DNA from: Jiangella gansuensis DSM 44835
Lineage (GTDB): Bacteria > Actinomycetota > Actinomycetes > Jiangellales > Jiangellaceae
DNA: 64,000 nucleotides
Assembly (NCBI RefSeq): GCF_000515395.1
Contig: NZ_KI911782.1
Location: 1,775,090 to 1,839,089 of the forward strand
Direction of reading: 5' to 3'
Below, piece after piece: positions 2,733 through 47,553 of the stretch. Made by a program: the position numbers and the translations under genes. The stretch's first letter is position 1, and every line of letters starts with the position of its first letter. The notes under the pieces were generated by a model. The model made no database searches. It was not told where the DNA came from and saw nothing but the letters and a program-made list of their open reading frames with translations.

Positions 2733-3790
2733 TCGGGCCGGCCGTCGACCGAGCACTCGACGCCGCCGCCGGCCAGGTCGCCCGCGGTGAGGAGTGGCTG
2801 CTGGGGGCGAAGCGGGCGACGTACGGCGTCGCGGCCGTGCGGGTCATCTTCGGGCTGGCGGCCGTATGGTTCCTGCTGGCCAACTGGAGCAATCGGCACT
2901 ACCTGTGGGGCGACGCCGGCCAGTGGATGTCGCCGCTGGCGCGCAACGGCGGCTTCGGCTGGCCGTTCACGCTGTTCGACGGCGGCGGCAGCCAGATCGA
3001 GGTGACGCTCAAGCTGCTGTTGGTGCTGGCCCTGGCAGTCGCGCTCACGTTGGGCTGGCGCACCCGGGTCGTCGCGCCGCTGCTTCTCGTCTGCTGGGTG
3101 AGCCTGATCGAGTCGAACCCGCTCTACGGCGACCAGAGCGACAACATCTTCCGCATCCTGCTCATCTATCTGTGCTTCGCCGACCTGTCCGGACGGTGGT
3201 CGCTCGACGCCCGCCGCCGGGCGCGGCGCGCTGCCGGCACCGGGCGCCGGCTGTTGCCGTCGTCGGTCGCCCTCCCGGCCCGCGCCCAGCGCAACGTGGG
3301 GCTGTTCGGCACTTTGGTGCACAATTTCGCCGTTCTGGCGGTCGCCGCGCAGATCTGCATCATCTATGTGGCCTCGGCGCTGTACAAGGTGCAGGGCGAG
3401 TACTGGCAGGACGGCACGGCGGTGTACTACCCGATGCAGGTGGGGCAGTACCGGCCGTGGCCGTGGCTGAACGACCTGCTGTCGGCGAACCCGTTCGGGG
3501 TGCTCGTCGTCTCGTACTTCTCGGTCTTCATCCAGCTGTTCTTCCCGCTGATGCTGCTGCGCCGCTCCACCCGCGTGGTCGCCCTGCTCGGCGTCATCGC
3601 CATGCACATGGGGATCGCGGTGATCATGGGGCTGCCGTTCTTCTCGCTGTTCATCATGGCCGGCGACCAGATCTTCATCCGCGACTCCACATACGCGGCC
3701 GTCGCGGGCCGGTTCCGGACCTGGCGAGACGACCGGCGACGACGACGGCGGCCCGCTCCGGTGCCGGACAAGGTGCCCGCCCTCCAATGA
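2729..3790 (+). CDS. HTTM domain membrane protein, copy 1
   Basis: This is a 353-aa polytopic membrane protein of the HTTM (horizontally transferred transmembrane) superfamily, which includes vitamin K-dependent gamma-carboxylase and SdpB. Several hydrophobic helices are visible, with conserved stretches DNIFRILLIYLCFADLSGRW and KVQGEYWQDG typical of the bacterial HTTM core. The start ATG overlaps the stop of the DUF5819 gene. A basic, low-complexity cytoplasmic tail ends the protein. A second DUF5819-HTTM pair follows directly. Substrate unknown; the family is known or suspected to modify or process peptides and proteins at the membrane. Confidence 0.82.
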   Translation: MIGPAVDRALDAAAGQVARGEEWLLGAKRATYGVAAVRVIFGLAAVWFLLANWSNRHYLWGDAGQWMSPLARNGGFGWPFTLFDGGGSQIEVTLKLLLVLALAVALTLGWRTRVVAPLLLVCWVSLIESNPLYGDQSDNIFRILLIYLCFADLSGRWSLDARRRARRAAGTGRRLLPSSVALPARAQRNVGLFGTLVHNFAVLAVAAQICIIYVASALYKVQGEYWQDGTAVYYPMQVGQYRPWPWLNDLLSANPFGVLVVSYFSVFIQLFFPLMLLRRSTRVVALLGVIAMHMGIAVIMGLPFFSLFIMAGDQIFIRDSTYAAVAGRFRTWRDDRRRRRRPAPVPDKVPALQ

Positions 3791-3839
3791 TCATCAACGA
3801 TCGGCGGCACCGGAGCGCCGTCAACGGTTGATGATCAAT
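3786..3839. repeat. ATGATCAT-type palindromic repeat between the two HTTM modules
   Basis: An imperfect inverted repeat is framed by ATGATCATCAAC on the left and GTTGATGATCAAT on the right, with an inner GGCGGC/GCGCCG stem. The first 16 bases (ATGATCATCAACGATC) recur exactly at 45605-45620, and a related palindrome occurs at 47496-47553. It lies between the stop of HTTM copy 1 and the start of DUF5819 copy 2, so it may also attenuate or terminate transcription between the two modules. Confidence 0.7.
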
Positions 3840-3862
3840 GGAGAAGGGTTAGCCTGGCGGCC

Positions 3863-8127: not shown

Positions 8128-9087
8128 ATGGGTGAGGTTCTCGTTCTCGTCGACCACGTCGACGGTGCGGTACGCAAGACGACCACCGAGCTGCTGACGC
8201 TCGCGCGGCGGGTCGGCGAGCCGGCCGCGGTGTTCCTCGGCTCCGGCTACGACGACGCCGCCCGCGAGGTGCTGGCGTCCTACGGCGCGGCCAAGGTGTA
8301 CGTCGCCGACGCCCCGGAGCTGGAGGAGTTCCTCGTGGCTCCGAAGGCGGAGGCGCTGGCTCAGGTGGCGACGGCGTCGGGCGCGGCGGCCGTCCTGGTG
8401 ACGTCCACCCCGGACGGCAAGGAGGTCGCCGCCCGGCTGGCGGTGAAACTCGGCTCCGGGGTCATCACCGACGCTGTCGATGTCGACGTGGTCGATTCCG
8501 TGGTGACGACCACGCAGTCCGTGTTCGCCGGCGGGTACACCGTCACGGCCCAGGTGCCGTCCGGCACCGCGATCGTCGCGGTCAAGCCGAACTCGGCCAC
8601 GCCCGAGCAGTCCCCCGCGGCGGCGACGGAGGAGAAGGTCGCGGTCACGGTGTCGGATTCCGCGCGCCGCGCCCGCATCGTCCAGCGGTCGCCGCGAGCG
8701 GCCACCGGCCGGCCGGAGCTCGCGGAGGCTGCCATCGTCGTGTCCGGCGGGCGCGGCACCGGCGGCGACTTCGGGCCGGTCGAGGCGCTGGCCGATGCGC
8801 TGGGCGCCGCGGTCGGCGCGTCGCGCGCCGCTGTCGACTCGGGGTGGTACCCGCACGCCTACCAGGTCGGGCAGACCGGCAAGACGGTCTCGCCGCAGCT
8901 GTACCTCGCGGCCGGCATCTCCGGCGCCATCCAGCACCGGGCCGGCATGCAGACGTCCAAGACGATCGTCGTGGTGAACAAGGACGCCGAGGCGCCCATC
9001 TTCGCCATGGCCGACTTCGGCGTCGTCGGCGACCTGCACACCATCCTGCCGCAGGCCACCGCCGAGATCGAGAAGCGCAAGTCCTGA
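8128..9087 (+). CDS. etfA: Electron transfer flavoprotein alpha subunit
   Basis: The 319-aa FAD-binding subunit of electron transfer flavoprotein. The C-terminal FAD domain is intact: [10 protein letters not shown], then [35 protein letters not shown] and the final [15 protein letters not shown] block. ATG 8128 was chosen because GAGGGGGT at 8113-8120 lies 7 nt upstream and the protein then begins [10 protein letters not shown] as in homologues; upstream in-frame sequence belongs to the end of etfB in another frame. It ends the etf operon and is followed by a 74-bp palindromic repeat. Confidence 0.96.
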
Positions 9088-9128: not shown

Positions 9129-9202
9129 CGTTGATCTTGGAGCAACCGCAGAAATGCGGGGCGAAATGCCCGATTGATTCCGCAGGTTCTCCAAGATCAA
9201 CG
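9129..9202. repeat. 74-bp palindromic repeat, copy 1 (GTTGATCTTGGA ends)
   Basis: Perfect 13-bp terminal inverted repeats (CGTTGATCTTGGA and TCCAAGATCAACG) bound a 74-bp element between etfA and the cysteine desulfurase gene. The reverse complement of 41291-41364 has exactly the same length and, by eye, about 80% identity, including GGGCGAAATG and GATTCCGC in the interior. It encodes no protein. It looks like a REP or MITE-type dispersed element and may also terminate etfBA. Confidence 0.85.
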
Positions 9203-9246: not shown

Positions 9247-10461
9247 ATGTCTGAGCGCCGGGTGTACCTCGATCACGCGGCGACGGCTCCCGTCCTTCCC
9301 GAGGTCATCGACGTCGTCGCCGCGGCCATGGCGACCCTCGGCAATCCGTCGTCGCTGCACGCGTCCGGCCGGCTGACGCGGAAGCTGGTCGAAGAGTCGC
9401 GCGAGTCGGTCGCCGCCAACCTGGGCGCGCGGCCCAGCGAAGTCGTGTTCACCTCCGGCGGCACCGAGGCCGACAACCTAGCGGTCAAGGGCATCTTCTG
9501 GGCCCGTCGCGCGGCCGACCCGCGTCGCGTGCGCATCCTCGCCTCCGCCGTCGAGCACCACGCGGTCATGGATCCGGTGCATTGGCTCGCCGCCGAGCAG
9601 GGTGCCAAGGTGGAGTGGCTGCCGGTCGACCACGCCGGCCGGCTCGACACCGAGGCGCTGCGGCACACGCTCCGCCAGGACCCGGAGTCGGTCGCGCTCA
9701 TCACCGTCATGTGGGCCAACAACGAGGTCGGCACGCTGCAGCCGGTCGGTGAGGTCGTCGGCATCGCCCGCCAGCACGGCATCCCGGTGCATTCCGACGC
9801 CGTCCAGGCGATCGGCCAGGTGCCCGTGCGTTTCGGCGAGTCCGGCCTGGATGCCATGACGGTGTCCGGGCACAAGGCCGGCGGCCCGGTCGGCGTCGGC
9901 GCCCTGCTGGCCCGGCGCGAGCTCGACCTGGTGCCGCTGACGCACGGCGGCGGTCAGGAGCGCGAGGTGCGCTCCGGCACCCTCGACGCGCCCGCCGCGG
10001 CCGGGCTGGCCGCCGCCCTGCGCGCCGCCGTCGCCGACGTCCCCGGTCACGCCGCGGAGCTGGCCCGGCTGCGCGACCGGCTGGTCGACGGCATCCGGCG
10101 CGAGGTCCCGGACGCCATCCGCAACGGCGACCCGGCGCACCTGCTGCCCGGGCACGCCCACTTCTCCTTCCCCGGCTGCGAGGGCGACTCCCTGCTGCTC
10201 CTGCTGGACGCGGCGGGCATCGACTGCTCCACCGGCAGCGCCTGCACGGCCGGGGTCCCGGAACCGTCGCACGTGCTGCTCGCGATGGGCTCCGACCCGG
10301 CGCTGGCCCGCGGTTCGCTGCGGTTCACGCTCGGGCGCACCTCCACACCCGACGACGTCGACGCGCTGGTCCGCGCCATCGGGCCGGTGGTGGAGCGGGC
10401 CCGGGCCGCCGGCGTCGTCAACGTATCCACCAGCTCAACCAGCTCGACCAGGGGGAACTGA
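9247..10461 (+). CDS. Cysteine desulfurase (NifS/IscS family)
   Basis: This 404-aa PLP enzyme removes sulfur from L-cysteine as a persulfide. The PLP lysine is K210 in SGHKAGG, the PLP phosphate region is TSGGTEADN (69-77), [10 protein letters not shown] (182-191) holds the cofactor aspartate, and the catalytic Cys is C333 in STGSACTAG on the mobile loop. mnmA begins 2 nt after its stop, so its sulfur most likely feeds tRNA 2-thiouridine formation, and possibly Fe-S assembly. The C-terminus has a short Ser/Thr-rich tail. Confidence 0.93.
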
Positions 10462-40557: not shown

Positions 40558-41286
40558 ACCGGCTCCGTCGACGGCGTCCGCGACTGGTTCGCCGAGGTCC
40601 GGGTCGACGAGACCGTCGCCACCTTGCCGTCGGCGACGGTGCTCGGCTTCGCACTCGCCGGGGTGGCGGTCGCGGTCTACGGCCCGACCTGGCGGTTCGC
40701 CGGCTACCCGGTCACCATCGTGCACGAGCTGGGCCACGTCGTCGCCGCGATGACCGCCGGCTTCCGGCTGCGCGGGGTGACGGTGCGTGGCGACCTGTCC
40801 GGTGCCACGAACTTCTGGTCGCACAGCGTCCCCGGCACCCTGTGGACCATGTGGTGGGGCTACCCGGCGCCCGCGGTGGTCGGCTGGGCGCTGGTCTGGG
40901 CCGCCACCCACGGCTGGTCCCGCCTGGCGTTGGCGGTACTGGTCGCGTGCCTGGCGCTGGTGTTCCTGCTGTCGCGCAGCTGGCTCACCGTCGCCGTGGT
41001 GCTGACGACGGGGGTGGCGTTCGGCCTGGTCGGGTGGTACGGGTCGGCCTGGCTGTGCACGGTGGTGGTGTTCGCGTTCGCGTGGCTGCTGACGGTGGGA
41101 GCCGTGCGGGGGCTGTGGGCGGTGGTGCGGGCGCACACCAGCGGCCGCGGCGTCGAGATGTCCGACGCATACCTCATGGCACAGCGGACGGTGCTGCCCG
41201 GCGGCCTGTGGCTGTTCACGTTCGCCCTGGTCATCGGGGCGTGCGCGTGGTTCAACGTGATGTCGGTGGTCGACGCCGTGTCGTGA
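40555..41286 (+). CDS. M50 family metallopeptidase, membrane-embedded
   Basis: A 243-aa polytopic membrane protein with the zinc-protease motif HELGH at residues 57-61 inside a helix (GYPVTIVHELGHVVAAMTAGF), as in site-2 protease-like M50B enzymes of actinobacteria. About six further hydrophobic helices follow. An obvious second LDG-type motif is not seen, so catalytic competence is likely but not certain. GTG 40555 is used; the upstream GGGAG lies within a palindromic repeat. Substrate unknown. Confidence 0.82.
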   Translation: MTGSVDGVRDWFAEVRVDETVATLPSATVLGFALAGVAVAVYGPTWRFAGYPVTIVHELGHVVAAMTAGFRLRGVTVRGDLSGATNFWSHSVPGTLWTMWWGYPAPAVVGWALVWAATHGWSRLALAVLVACLALVFLLSRSWLTVAVVLTTGVAFGLVGWYGSAWLCTVVVFAFAWLLTVGAVRGLWAVVRAHTSGRGVEMSDAYLMAQRTVLPGGLWLFTFALVIGACAWFNVMSVVDAVS

Positions 41287-41290
41287 TCCG

Positions 41291-41364
41291 CGTTGATCTT
41301 GGACTTCTGGCGGAATCTATCGGACATTTCGCCCTACGATTGCGCCGTTGCTCCAAGATCAACG
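41291..41364. repeat. 74-bp palindromic repeat, copy 2 (inverted relative to copy 1)
   Basis: CGTTGATCTTGGA and TCCAAGATCAACG bound a 74-bp element right after the M50 peptidase stop. It is the inverted counterpart of 9129-9202. Its terminal arms are identical and the interior agrees at most positions. The element lies directly upstream of the monooxygenase start and is open in that reading frame, which can mislead start-codon choice. Confidence 0.85.
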
Positions 41365-45401: not shown

Positions 45402-45891
45402 CGCGGTTCGGGAGCTCGGTGCGTGCGCGGCACGGGAGCAGTGACCTTCCGCAGCGGCTTGGCCATGCATCGCGCGTCGCGGTGCGCGTCGTGAAGCTCG
45501 CGGCGTCGGATACCGCCCAGGCGAATACCCTCGGGTGCGAGCTCCGACGACGCTAGACGTGGAGGTCATGGGGTAGTGGAGGCGGACGTGGACGTCCGGC
45601 AGCCATGATCATCAACGATCCGGCACATCACTAGGCGTTCTCCCGCTGCACCACGCCAACATCCCTGGTGGTGCGGGAGAACGCCCAGTGTCGTCCGCGA
45701 CTTCCCCTGATGACGACCGCCGCGGCGGCCGGCCCATCGCGCAAACTCGTGGCCGTCACGATTGGTGATCTGTTGCCACCTACAGAGGGTGACAGGAACG
45801 TTTCGCCGAGTCCGATGCGCCGTCCGGCAGCCGCGTCATAAGATCATCGGCTCGGTTCTGCACGGACGACAGCCGCTGGGAGACGCACGGA
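45402..45891. other. 490-bp intergenic region with two palindromic repeats
   Basis: No convincing gene. It holds the ATGATCATCAACGATC 16-mer at 45605-45620 (shared with 3787-3802) and the complete GCGTTCTCCCGC palindrome at 45629-45690. The remaining right part should carry the promoter for the lipoprotein gene; I see no clear -35/-10 pair. Confidence 0.5.
45629..45690. repeat. GCGTTCTCCCGC-type palindromic repeat, copy 2
   Basis: A 62-bp inverted repeat: CACTAGGCGTTCTCCCGC at the left and GCGGGAGAACGCCCAGTG at the right, with CACCA/TGGTG inner arms. It is the better-preserved relative of 40498-40557 and lies in the opposite orientation. About 18 of 20 outer stem bases pair. Confidence 0.8.
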
Positions 45892-47495: not shown

Positions 47496-47553
47496 CCCAT
47501 GATCATCCAGAGTTGACCCGGTCAGGGCCGGGTGAAGTCTGGATGATCATGGG
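47496..47553. repeat. ATGATCATCC palindrome, probable bidirectional terminator
   Basis: A 58-bp near-perfect hairpin: CCCATGATCATCCAGA pairs with its exact complement, followed by an inner CCCGG/CCGGG stem around a 5-nt loop. It lies between two convergent genes, starting 13 bp after the stop of the secreted protein gene, so it may terminate transcription from both sides. Its core relates it to the ATGATCAT repeats at 3786 and 45605. Confidence 0.75.

Follow-up and report, generated by a model that had tools for sequence, protein, structure and literature searches.

The 74-bp palindrome that lies between etfA and a cysteine desulfurase gene in Jiangella gansuensis is best read as the non-autonomous form of a chromosomal mobile element, with a probability of about 0.7. 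In the proposed autonomous form, two such palindromes bracket a gene for an AbiEi/EDxHD nuclease, and this nuclease would move them. The palindromes form a family with variable presence, the nuclease genes are bracketed by matching palindromes, and each nuclease clade is paired with its own palindrome type. We infer that the nuclease mobilizes the palindromes. A preliminary description of this DNA had proposed a mobile non-autonomous family, and that proposal agrees with the multiple copies, with same-site presence that varies by species, and with a longer form that carries a recurring gene.

The window, meaning the whole 64-kb stretch of DNA that was analysed, corresponds to C1:1775090-1839089 of a single-contig genome of 5,585,780 bases. 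It holds two copies of the palindrome (Table 1). Copy 1 sits between the etfA stop codon, which ends at 9087, and the cysteine desulfurase ATG at 9247; its GTTG begins 42 bp 3' of the etfA stop codon. It reads C+GTTGATCTTGGA...TCCAAGATCAAC+G, so that its perfect terminal repeats measure 13 bp, as first described, or 14 bp counting the outer C-G pair. The core and inner right arm are asymmetric, and this gives the palindrome an orientation. The alignment shows the same for the family centre (GGGCGAAATGTCCGAT), so each copy has an orientation. Copy 2 was reported as inverted and of equal length, with about 80% identity by eye; it is present at 41291, and BLAST gives 81%. The gene before it has a stop codon that ends at 41286, 4 bp away from this copy. 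Both copies fold into hairpins far stronger than shuffled sequence (z -5.9 to -8.1; copy 1, -6.2/-8.1). Three more strong palindromes of other sequences (e.g. CTCCAATGATCATCAAC and CCCATGATCATCCAGA types) occur in the window at 3782-3843, 45629-45690, and 47496-47553. Palindromes of the ATGATCATCAAC type also lie between genes in other Jiangella genomes, and therefore several palindrome families probably coexist.

Table 1. Coordinates of the palindrome copies in the window and of the proposed autonomous unit in the same genome (G000)
Feature	Position	Strand	Basis
Copy 1, 74-bp palindrome (proposed non-autonomous form)	9129..9202	+	sequence, BLAST, pattern family, fold
Copy 1, left terminal inverted repeat (CGTTGATCTTGGAG)	9129..9142	+	GTTGATCTTGGA nearly invariant in 34 aligned copies
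Copy 1, right terminal inverted repeat	9189..9202	-	nearly invariant in 34 aligned copies
Copy 1, asymmetric core and inner right arm (CGGGGCGAAATGCCCGATTGATTCCGCAGG)	9157..9186	+	conserved interior alignment columns
Copy 2, 74-bp palindrome, opposite orientation	41291..41364	-	sequence, BLAST, pattern, gene setting
Proposed autonomous unit, palindrome-gene-palindrome, ~1.23 kb (outside window)	G000:C1:3102744-3103972	gene on -	

The two copies belong to a large family. A search for the two 12-base ends spaced 30-60 bases apart found 60 occurrences in the 5.59-Mb genome, and the reversed control pattern found none, which bears out the earlier view that this is more than a chance hairpin. All but one of the listed perfect-ended copies measure exactly 72 bases end to end. 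With copy 1 as BLAST query, all 40 scored matches (of 77 candidates) are distinct sites, copy 1 included, with at least 72 of the 74 bp covered; some of these near full-length copies have imperfect ends. A covariance model built from 34 copies has at least 137 matches in this genome, a number uncontrolled for other hairpin families. Across 12 Jiangella genomes the pattern counts are 60 (this genome), 0, 55, 2, 9, 99, 56, 12, 29, 70, 1, and 23, with the control at 0 throughout. The pattern is thus present in 11 of 12 genomes, and the notion of two lone chance hairpins with no relatives gives way to a multi-copy family shared with congeners. Integron attC sites, suggested by the GTT...AAC ends, were set aside as the copies are dispersed, of near-fixed length, and outside arrays.

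Among the 34 aligned copies, each arm hardly varies over its outer 13-14 bases; in part this reflects the BLAST and pattern searches themselves, which favour copies with such ends. Copies reached through their flanks vary in this respect. The copy 1 orthologue in G004 has 0 of 24 end changes, and the G004 and G011 copies at the site of the nuclease gene have changed ends. The next dozen bases inward are subfamily-specific and often altered on both arms. Interior columns are conserved in the family alignment, in line with the conserved interior blocks noted at the outset. Three draft contigs (G003:C68, G005:C8, and G004:C3) start exactly 28 bases before a copy, which occupies 29-100; this is perhaps an assembly effect of the hairpin.

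Two copies at 3102744 and 3103899, 1.15 kb apart, drew attention because they enclose DNA that is found again in other places in the genus. The interior of this unit has one credible gene, of 308 aa on the minus strand, and no AbiEii toxin partner gene between the two palindromes. In Pfam the protein passes the cut-off for AbiEi_1, and its matches to MTES_1575 and DUF559 fall short of theirs. Among 19 aligned proteins including this one, MTES_1575 is matched by 19/19 (E <=0.01), DUF559 by 14/19, AbiEi_1 by 8/19, and DUF2726 once. PADLOC calls the protein AbiEi (E 1.9e-14), and NCBIfam has no match for it. Neither it nor any of the 19 aligned proteins matches a Pfam tyrosine-transposase. A sequence search of the PDB returned no match. 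In an AlphaFold2 model (pLDDT 87), residues 16-194 resemble the AbiEi antitoxin 6y8q (Z 12.0, rmsd 4.4, 172 residues). Residues 199-303 resemble the homing endonuclease I-Bth0305I, 3r3p (Z 11.7, rmsd 2.7, 97/97 residues), followed by Vsr, 1cw0 (Z 10.2, rmsd 2.5, 99 residues) and TnsA (Z 6.6). Foldseek gives E 2.9e-6 for AbiEi and just 0.1 for I-Bth0305I. The model thus predicts an AbiEi-like half joined to a Vsr/I-Bth0305I-like (EDxHD, DUF559/MTES_1575) nuclease half. In the cited excerpts, a Vsr-type domain is named after MTES_1575 (PMC3710099) and a DUF559 gene is assigned to EDxHD (PMC9403480). A search for plasmid, phage, or viral origin yielded one weak plasmid record and one weak phage record, no confirmed IMG/VR match, and nothing in PHROG; the best predicted viral structure matches are phage DUF559 proteins at E 1e-4 and weaker. 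The nuclease genes are under purifying selection, with a median pN/pS of 0.36 and a maximum of 0.46 (9 clade-1 and 8 clade-2 genes).

A protein search of the genus returned 26 stretches that represent 24 distinct genes. When two mismatches per end are allowed, 23 of the 24 adjoin one of two palindrome types. Clade 1 consists of nine genes in seven genomes (the gene described above and eight at 65-72% identity), all with the GATCTTGG type. Seven of the nine have palindromes on both sides and two on one side, with contigs ending there. Clade 2 consists of 12 genes at 44-55% identity, one of which, in G001, is in two pieces (55 and 35%). All 12 have the 60-61 bp GATCATGG type, on both sides in eight (one right-hand copy from a separate search) and on one side in four. 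Two degraded genes have one palindrome each, and the remaining match (L231, 35%) has none.

In all seven clade-1 genes that have a palindrome on either side, the two palindromes are nearest or nearly nearest to each other; when ranked with 120 other copies, the partner comes third at worst. By eye, both relative orientations are seen among flanking pairs. In the tree of clade-1 proteins, the two subfamilies of the 74-bp palindrome do not fall cleanly apart. Clade-1 genes occur at several unrelated sites in the genus, not at one fixed homing site. When the autonomous copies at unrelated loci in this genome and in G005 are compared (L206/L208), homology spans the unit from one palindrome to the other and extends to no more than 5 bp from their outer ends. 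In other autonomous pairs, the alignment ends short of the palindromes or overruns them by up to ~45 bp. Two insertions are common to species pairs, flank homology included. In one of these (L208/L210) both palindromes differ alike between the species, at 22 and 20 of 48 interior bases, with the ends unchanged. This parallel difference could reflect concerted change or replacement.

Copy number follows the gene loosely. Genomes with a clade-1 gene have 2, 23, 29, 56, 60, 70, and 99 copies of the 74-bp palindrome, and those without have 0, 1, 9, 12, and 55, a weak agreement (p 0.048) among 12 related genomes whose species are not independent. By eye, the number of 61-bp copies does not follow the number of clade-2 genes. 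G002, a genome in one contig, has 55 and 44 copies of the two palindromes, and a nuclease of either clade is absent there at the thresholds used (5 of 78 candidates scored in the profile search). Therefore, copies outlive the gene or do not need it. At L227, a copy of the 74-bp family (3193-3264) lies ~800 bp beyond a clade-2 gene, and both palindrome families can therefore use the same neighbourhood.

Bracketing extends beyond Jiangella. A profile of the 19 proteins, with up to five candidates scored per genome, finds relatives in at least 173 of 393 sampled genomes of the class, in at least 80 of 137 genera. Flanks were compared at 58 outside loci, 18 of an initial 19 from the profile search (L298 was left out, at a contig end) and 40 more hand-picked from its matches roughly by rank. 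The 40 were chosen without sight of their flanks, with some rows and genes near contig ends skipped, and in 3/40 the locus is truncated where its contig stops. When the two flanks of a locus are aligned locally with each other, the score is at least 20 in 41/58 and at least 16 in 49/58, in a sample that comes from fewer than 58 genomes, lies among the better matches, and is neither random nor fully independent; 9/58 score below 16. Cross-locus controls reach these scores in 4/696 and 7/696, and shifted windows at the same loci in 1/193 and 2/193. For 41/58, Fisher p is 3e-49 against the cross-locus and 3e-32 against the shifted controls. Hairpins are detected on the left in 41/58, on the right in 34/58, and on both sides in 27/58, vs 47/213 shifted windows; some matching flanks have no detected hairpin (e.g. 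L314, L315, and L337).

Palindrome similarity tracks protein identity (Mantel 0.355, for the 62 of 78 loci with a detected palindrome). None of 999 permutations is as high (maximum 0.16), and the value without pairs inside the genus is 0.165 (not permuted). In G168 and G256, exact palindrome arms occur solely beside the gene, in two copies and one copy. The palindrome there therefore goes with the gene and is not a widespread host repeat, and a palindrome of this kind does not always disperse. An in-frame stop interrupts each of the two genes, which may be dead.

Presence of the palindromes was compared site by site across the genus. At the copy 1 site, 2/12 genomes have the element, this genome and G004, and the copy lies at the same distance, 26 bp, from the anchor downstream. 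In five genomes another G+C-rich hairpin occupies the site, and the remaining five have just a short spacer. The different hairpin in the etfA-nifS spacer of five genomes of the genus (L193, L194, L198, L200, and L201) is GGCGGCCGGCTC...GGGCCGGCCGCC-like; the same spacer in Haloactinopolyspora alba (L064; the loci L064-L066 stand outside the count of 12) has, by eye, yet another hairpin. For five further sites of this genome, 42 relative sites could be read. Two hold a family copy, both at the site of the nuclease gene, where one more relative has a copy of the 61-bp type. One relative site has a short remnant, and the rest are empty or have other sequence, often other palindromes. Empty sites had been named as a check in the preliminary description. 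Presence differs between species, but no clean empty site was found at the sites compared across the genus, because the species are too divergent.

These data bear on a different order of events, in which a homing endonuclease invaded pre-existing host palindromes, doubling its target on insertion, and the palindromes spread by another route. The nearest solved fold of the nuclease half is indeed that of a homing endonuclease, and G002 is rich in palindromes with no gene found. At the site of the nuclease gene, G004 has a single family palindrome without the gene and G011 one with GATCGTGG ends, either of which could be the target before insertion. However, such a solo palindrome is equally explained by recombination between two flanking copies, and the same site in G003, G006, and G008 has no palindrome at all. 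Palindrome type changes with nuclease clade, and the exact arms in G168 and G256 occur solely beside the gene. We therefore regard the homing scenario as unlikely, and prefer an element in which palindromes and nuclease move as parts of one system.

Target duplications, another feature flagged for checking, did not emerge: none of 2-12 bp is found above permuted flanks for 119 copies and 24 of the second family. In the same set, the left flank is C-rich and the right flank G-rich. In the 74-bp family, the two nearest flanking positions pair above the permuted control (61 vs 41% and 45 vs 29%). Such flanks are what an element that inserts into palindromic C/G stems would leave. One stretch of 100 bp beside a copy in G005 is present at three places, palindrome included. 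At one locus there, G005:C4 (L050), a 94-bp direct duplication of a gene end (1301-1393 and 1590-1683) brackets the segment made of the 100 bp and the palindrome. The two repeats have 97% identity, and the bracketed segment is apparently recent. A simple cut-and-paste of 74 bp would not give this move with 100 bp of neighbour DNA. Long direct repeats around copies are in no excess (score at least 20 at 3/146, vs 12/1500 random places), and because of this the L050 duplication stays a single case. Insertions of ~0.6 to 1.4 kb with GTCCCCCTGCTGCCC / GGGCAGCAGGGGGAC ends were seen between genes at L244 (G002), L259, and L260 (G009), where several other species have a short gap; this is another mobile element.

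The nuclease might instead be a mere passenger, and the palindromes an ordinary MITE that depends on some unseen DDE or HUH transposase. A MITE would also be short, dispersed, and bounded by terminal inverted repeats, and the palindromes fit that definition. Yet the 2-12 bp duplication is at the level of the permuted controls in the 119 + 24 copies, and the nuclease is repeatedly found between or beside palindromes. The other close pair examined in this genome, 2 kb apart, encloses an ordinary gene, ROK-type sugar kinase-like by a name read from its sequence. A passenger is not expected to keep its own palindrome type across genera. On balance the passenger explanation is improbable, though likelier than the two that follow.

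The copies favour the ends of genes, as would be expected of a transcription terminator or structured RNA owned by the host, inherited vertically, and kept for ending transcription. Our own gene finder classes 59 copies of this genome as 33 tandem, 20 convergent, and 4 divergent; one more is within a gene and one could not be classed. The background, gaps of at least 100 bp, consists of 46 tandem, 11 convergent, and 20 divergent (Fisher p 0.007 for convergent, 0.006 for divergent). Where a neighbouring gene end is present, 47/53 copies lie within 60 bp of the stop codon, at a median of 24 bp. The hairpins are strong. Among the 34 copies, 87.3% of cells pair, vs 83.0% in shuffles, and two-sided changes occur in 46 cells vs 20 in shuffles. 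Covariation, also raised as a check, is thus visible in two-sided changes above shuffles, but inner-arm pairing is imperfect, with inner arms often unpaired, and is kept only in part. These changes are not read as proof of an RNA function because the aligned copies are paralogues. Whatever their origin, the copies may end transcripts, the second option of the preliminary description.

A fixed structured RNA was rejected on the partly kept inner arms and on Rfam, which has 0 matches in the window at gathering score. A host terminator is also hard to square with a copy 1 site filled in just 2/12 genomes, with a family copy in 2/42 relative sites of the five further sites, and with copies that form parts of a gene-bearing unit, and we judge it quite improbable. 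The least credible reading, that the palindromes are operators bound by the AbiEi-like half and the dispersed copies a regulon or self-DNA marks for a defence nuclease, draws on the AbiEi-antitoxin resemblance of the N-terminal half and on the 12/37 copies with a downstream gene start that lie within 60 bp of it, but gene ends are favoured over promoters (4/57 classified copies divergent; 47/53 within 60 bp of a stop), copy number runs from 0 to 99 within one genus, and the unit of this genome has one credible gene and no partner toxin gene.

Returning to the nuclease-mobilized element, a possible mechanism is as follows. The AbiEi-like half would act as the DNA reader, reading the dyad-symmetric palindrome, probably as a dimer. 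The nuclease half would cut at or near the palindrome, or else at a C-rich/G-rich target that is itself palindromic, for instance the stem of a terminator. The break would then be filled, through repair or template switching, with a copy of the palindrome, either by itself or together with the gene. Surviving copies would be those just 3' of genes, where a hairpin harms little or ends transcription. Solo palindromes may have been copied alone, or left after recombination between two flanking copies. Several of the results above weigh against this reading: the palindrome-rich G002 with no gene found at the thresholds used, 61-bp copy numbers that do not track the clade-2 genes, a clade-1 tree that does not sort the palindrome subfamilies, outside loci with poorly matching flanks or hairpins on one side only, autonomous pairs whose homology stops short of the palindromes or overruns them, the lack of a short target duplication, the 100 bp carried along in G005, the low Pfam and Foldseek scores of the nuclease half, and the imperfect inner arms.

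A broader proposal is that this element represents a class in the Actinomycetes. Such elements would use a homing-endonuclease-descended nuclease with an AbiEi-type reader, and no transposase of known chemistry, to move long palindromes by double-strand or paired-nick cutting and repair, building dispersed hairpin families behind genes; most of the common 'AbiEi/DUF559' actinobacterial proteins would be their engines. We give this proposal an even chance. If true, it would give a large group of actinobacterial AbiEi/DUF559 genes a role (flanks were checked in 58 loci), account for the families of strong hairpins that follow genes in G+C-rich genomes, and provide a nuclease able to read palindromic sites of great length. 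The element would then be of a selfish kind that has drawn little notice, and many actinobacteria may harbour it. In open-licence PMC papers we found no account of palindromes around such a nuclease.

The element shares features with several known systems. Like MITEs, the palindromes are short, dispersed, and geneless, with terminal inverted repeats; unlike MITEs, they lack a short target duplication, and the cognate gene is not a known transposase. The predicted model resembles the AbiEi antitoxin (6y8q) and Vsr (1cw0) in the folds of its two halves. It differs from AbiE in that the unit of this genome lacks the AbiEii toxin partner, and from Vsr in not being a lone mismatch-repair nuclease. 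With EDxHD homing endonucleases it shares the predicted nuclease fold. According to the cited excerpt, I-Bth0305I dimerizes on an exceptionally long target of nearly 60 bp (PMC3943268), a length near those of the palindromes here. The EDxHD homing endonucleases in the excerpts are phage-encoded and linked to group I introns (PMC3943268). In contrast, the gene here lies in the chromosome and encodes an AbiEi-like half as well, and the palindromes on its two sides belong to families dispersed in several genomes.

TIRtrons, as the cited passages describe them, are RAYT-like genes with long terminal inverted repeats (PMC3733652). Here too a gene lies between inverted repeats that in some species are dispersed as a repeat family (PMC3733652). 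The TIRtron enzyme of those passages is, as in REPtrons, an HUH tyrosine transposase. In the present element each flank is a complete palindrome that forms its own hairpin.

The closest organization is that of the REPtrons. In the passages cited, these are RAYT genes with REPs on either side; gene and repeat change in concert, and the RAYT is proposed to mobilize the REPs (PMC2817692, PMC3733652). As in that description, a gene lies between two palindromes of a family that is also dispersed between genes as non-autonomous copies, repeat and enzyme change together, copies outnumber genes, and some genomes have repeats without the gene. The same passages describe RAYT genes as always between REPs in inverted orientation (PMC2817692, PMC8266576, PMC3733652), whereas the flanking palindromes here occur, by eye, in either relative orientation. 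A REP is a palindrome of 20-40 bp with the tetranucleotide GTAG at its foot. The palindromes here mostly measure 46-76 bp, and those of the 74-bp family lack the GTAG, with GTTGATCTTGGA ends and flanks that are solely C-rich/G-rich. The enzyme is an AbiEi-like and Vsr/EDxHD nuclease and not the Y1 HUH tyrosine transposase (IS200/IS605-like) described for REPtrons. Because the enzyme differs, the element is not a REPtron by membership. The 'REP-like' label of the preliminary description therefore holds for the organization but not in the strict sense, because the gene is not an HUH tyrosine transposase. By analogy, the Jiangella palindrome-nuclease element may work like a REPtron. REP-like palindromes are tied to HUH tyrosine transposases in the literature excerpts cited; here the same organization occurs with an unrelated enzyme.
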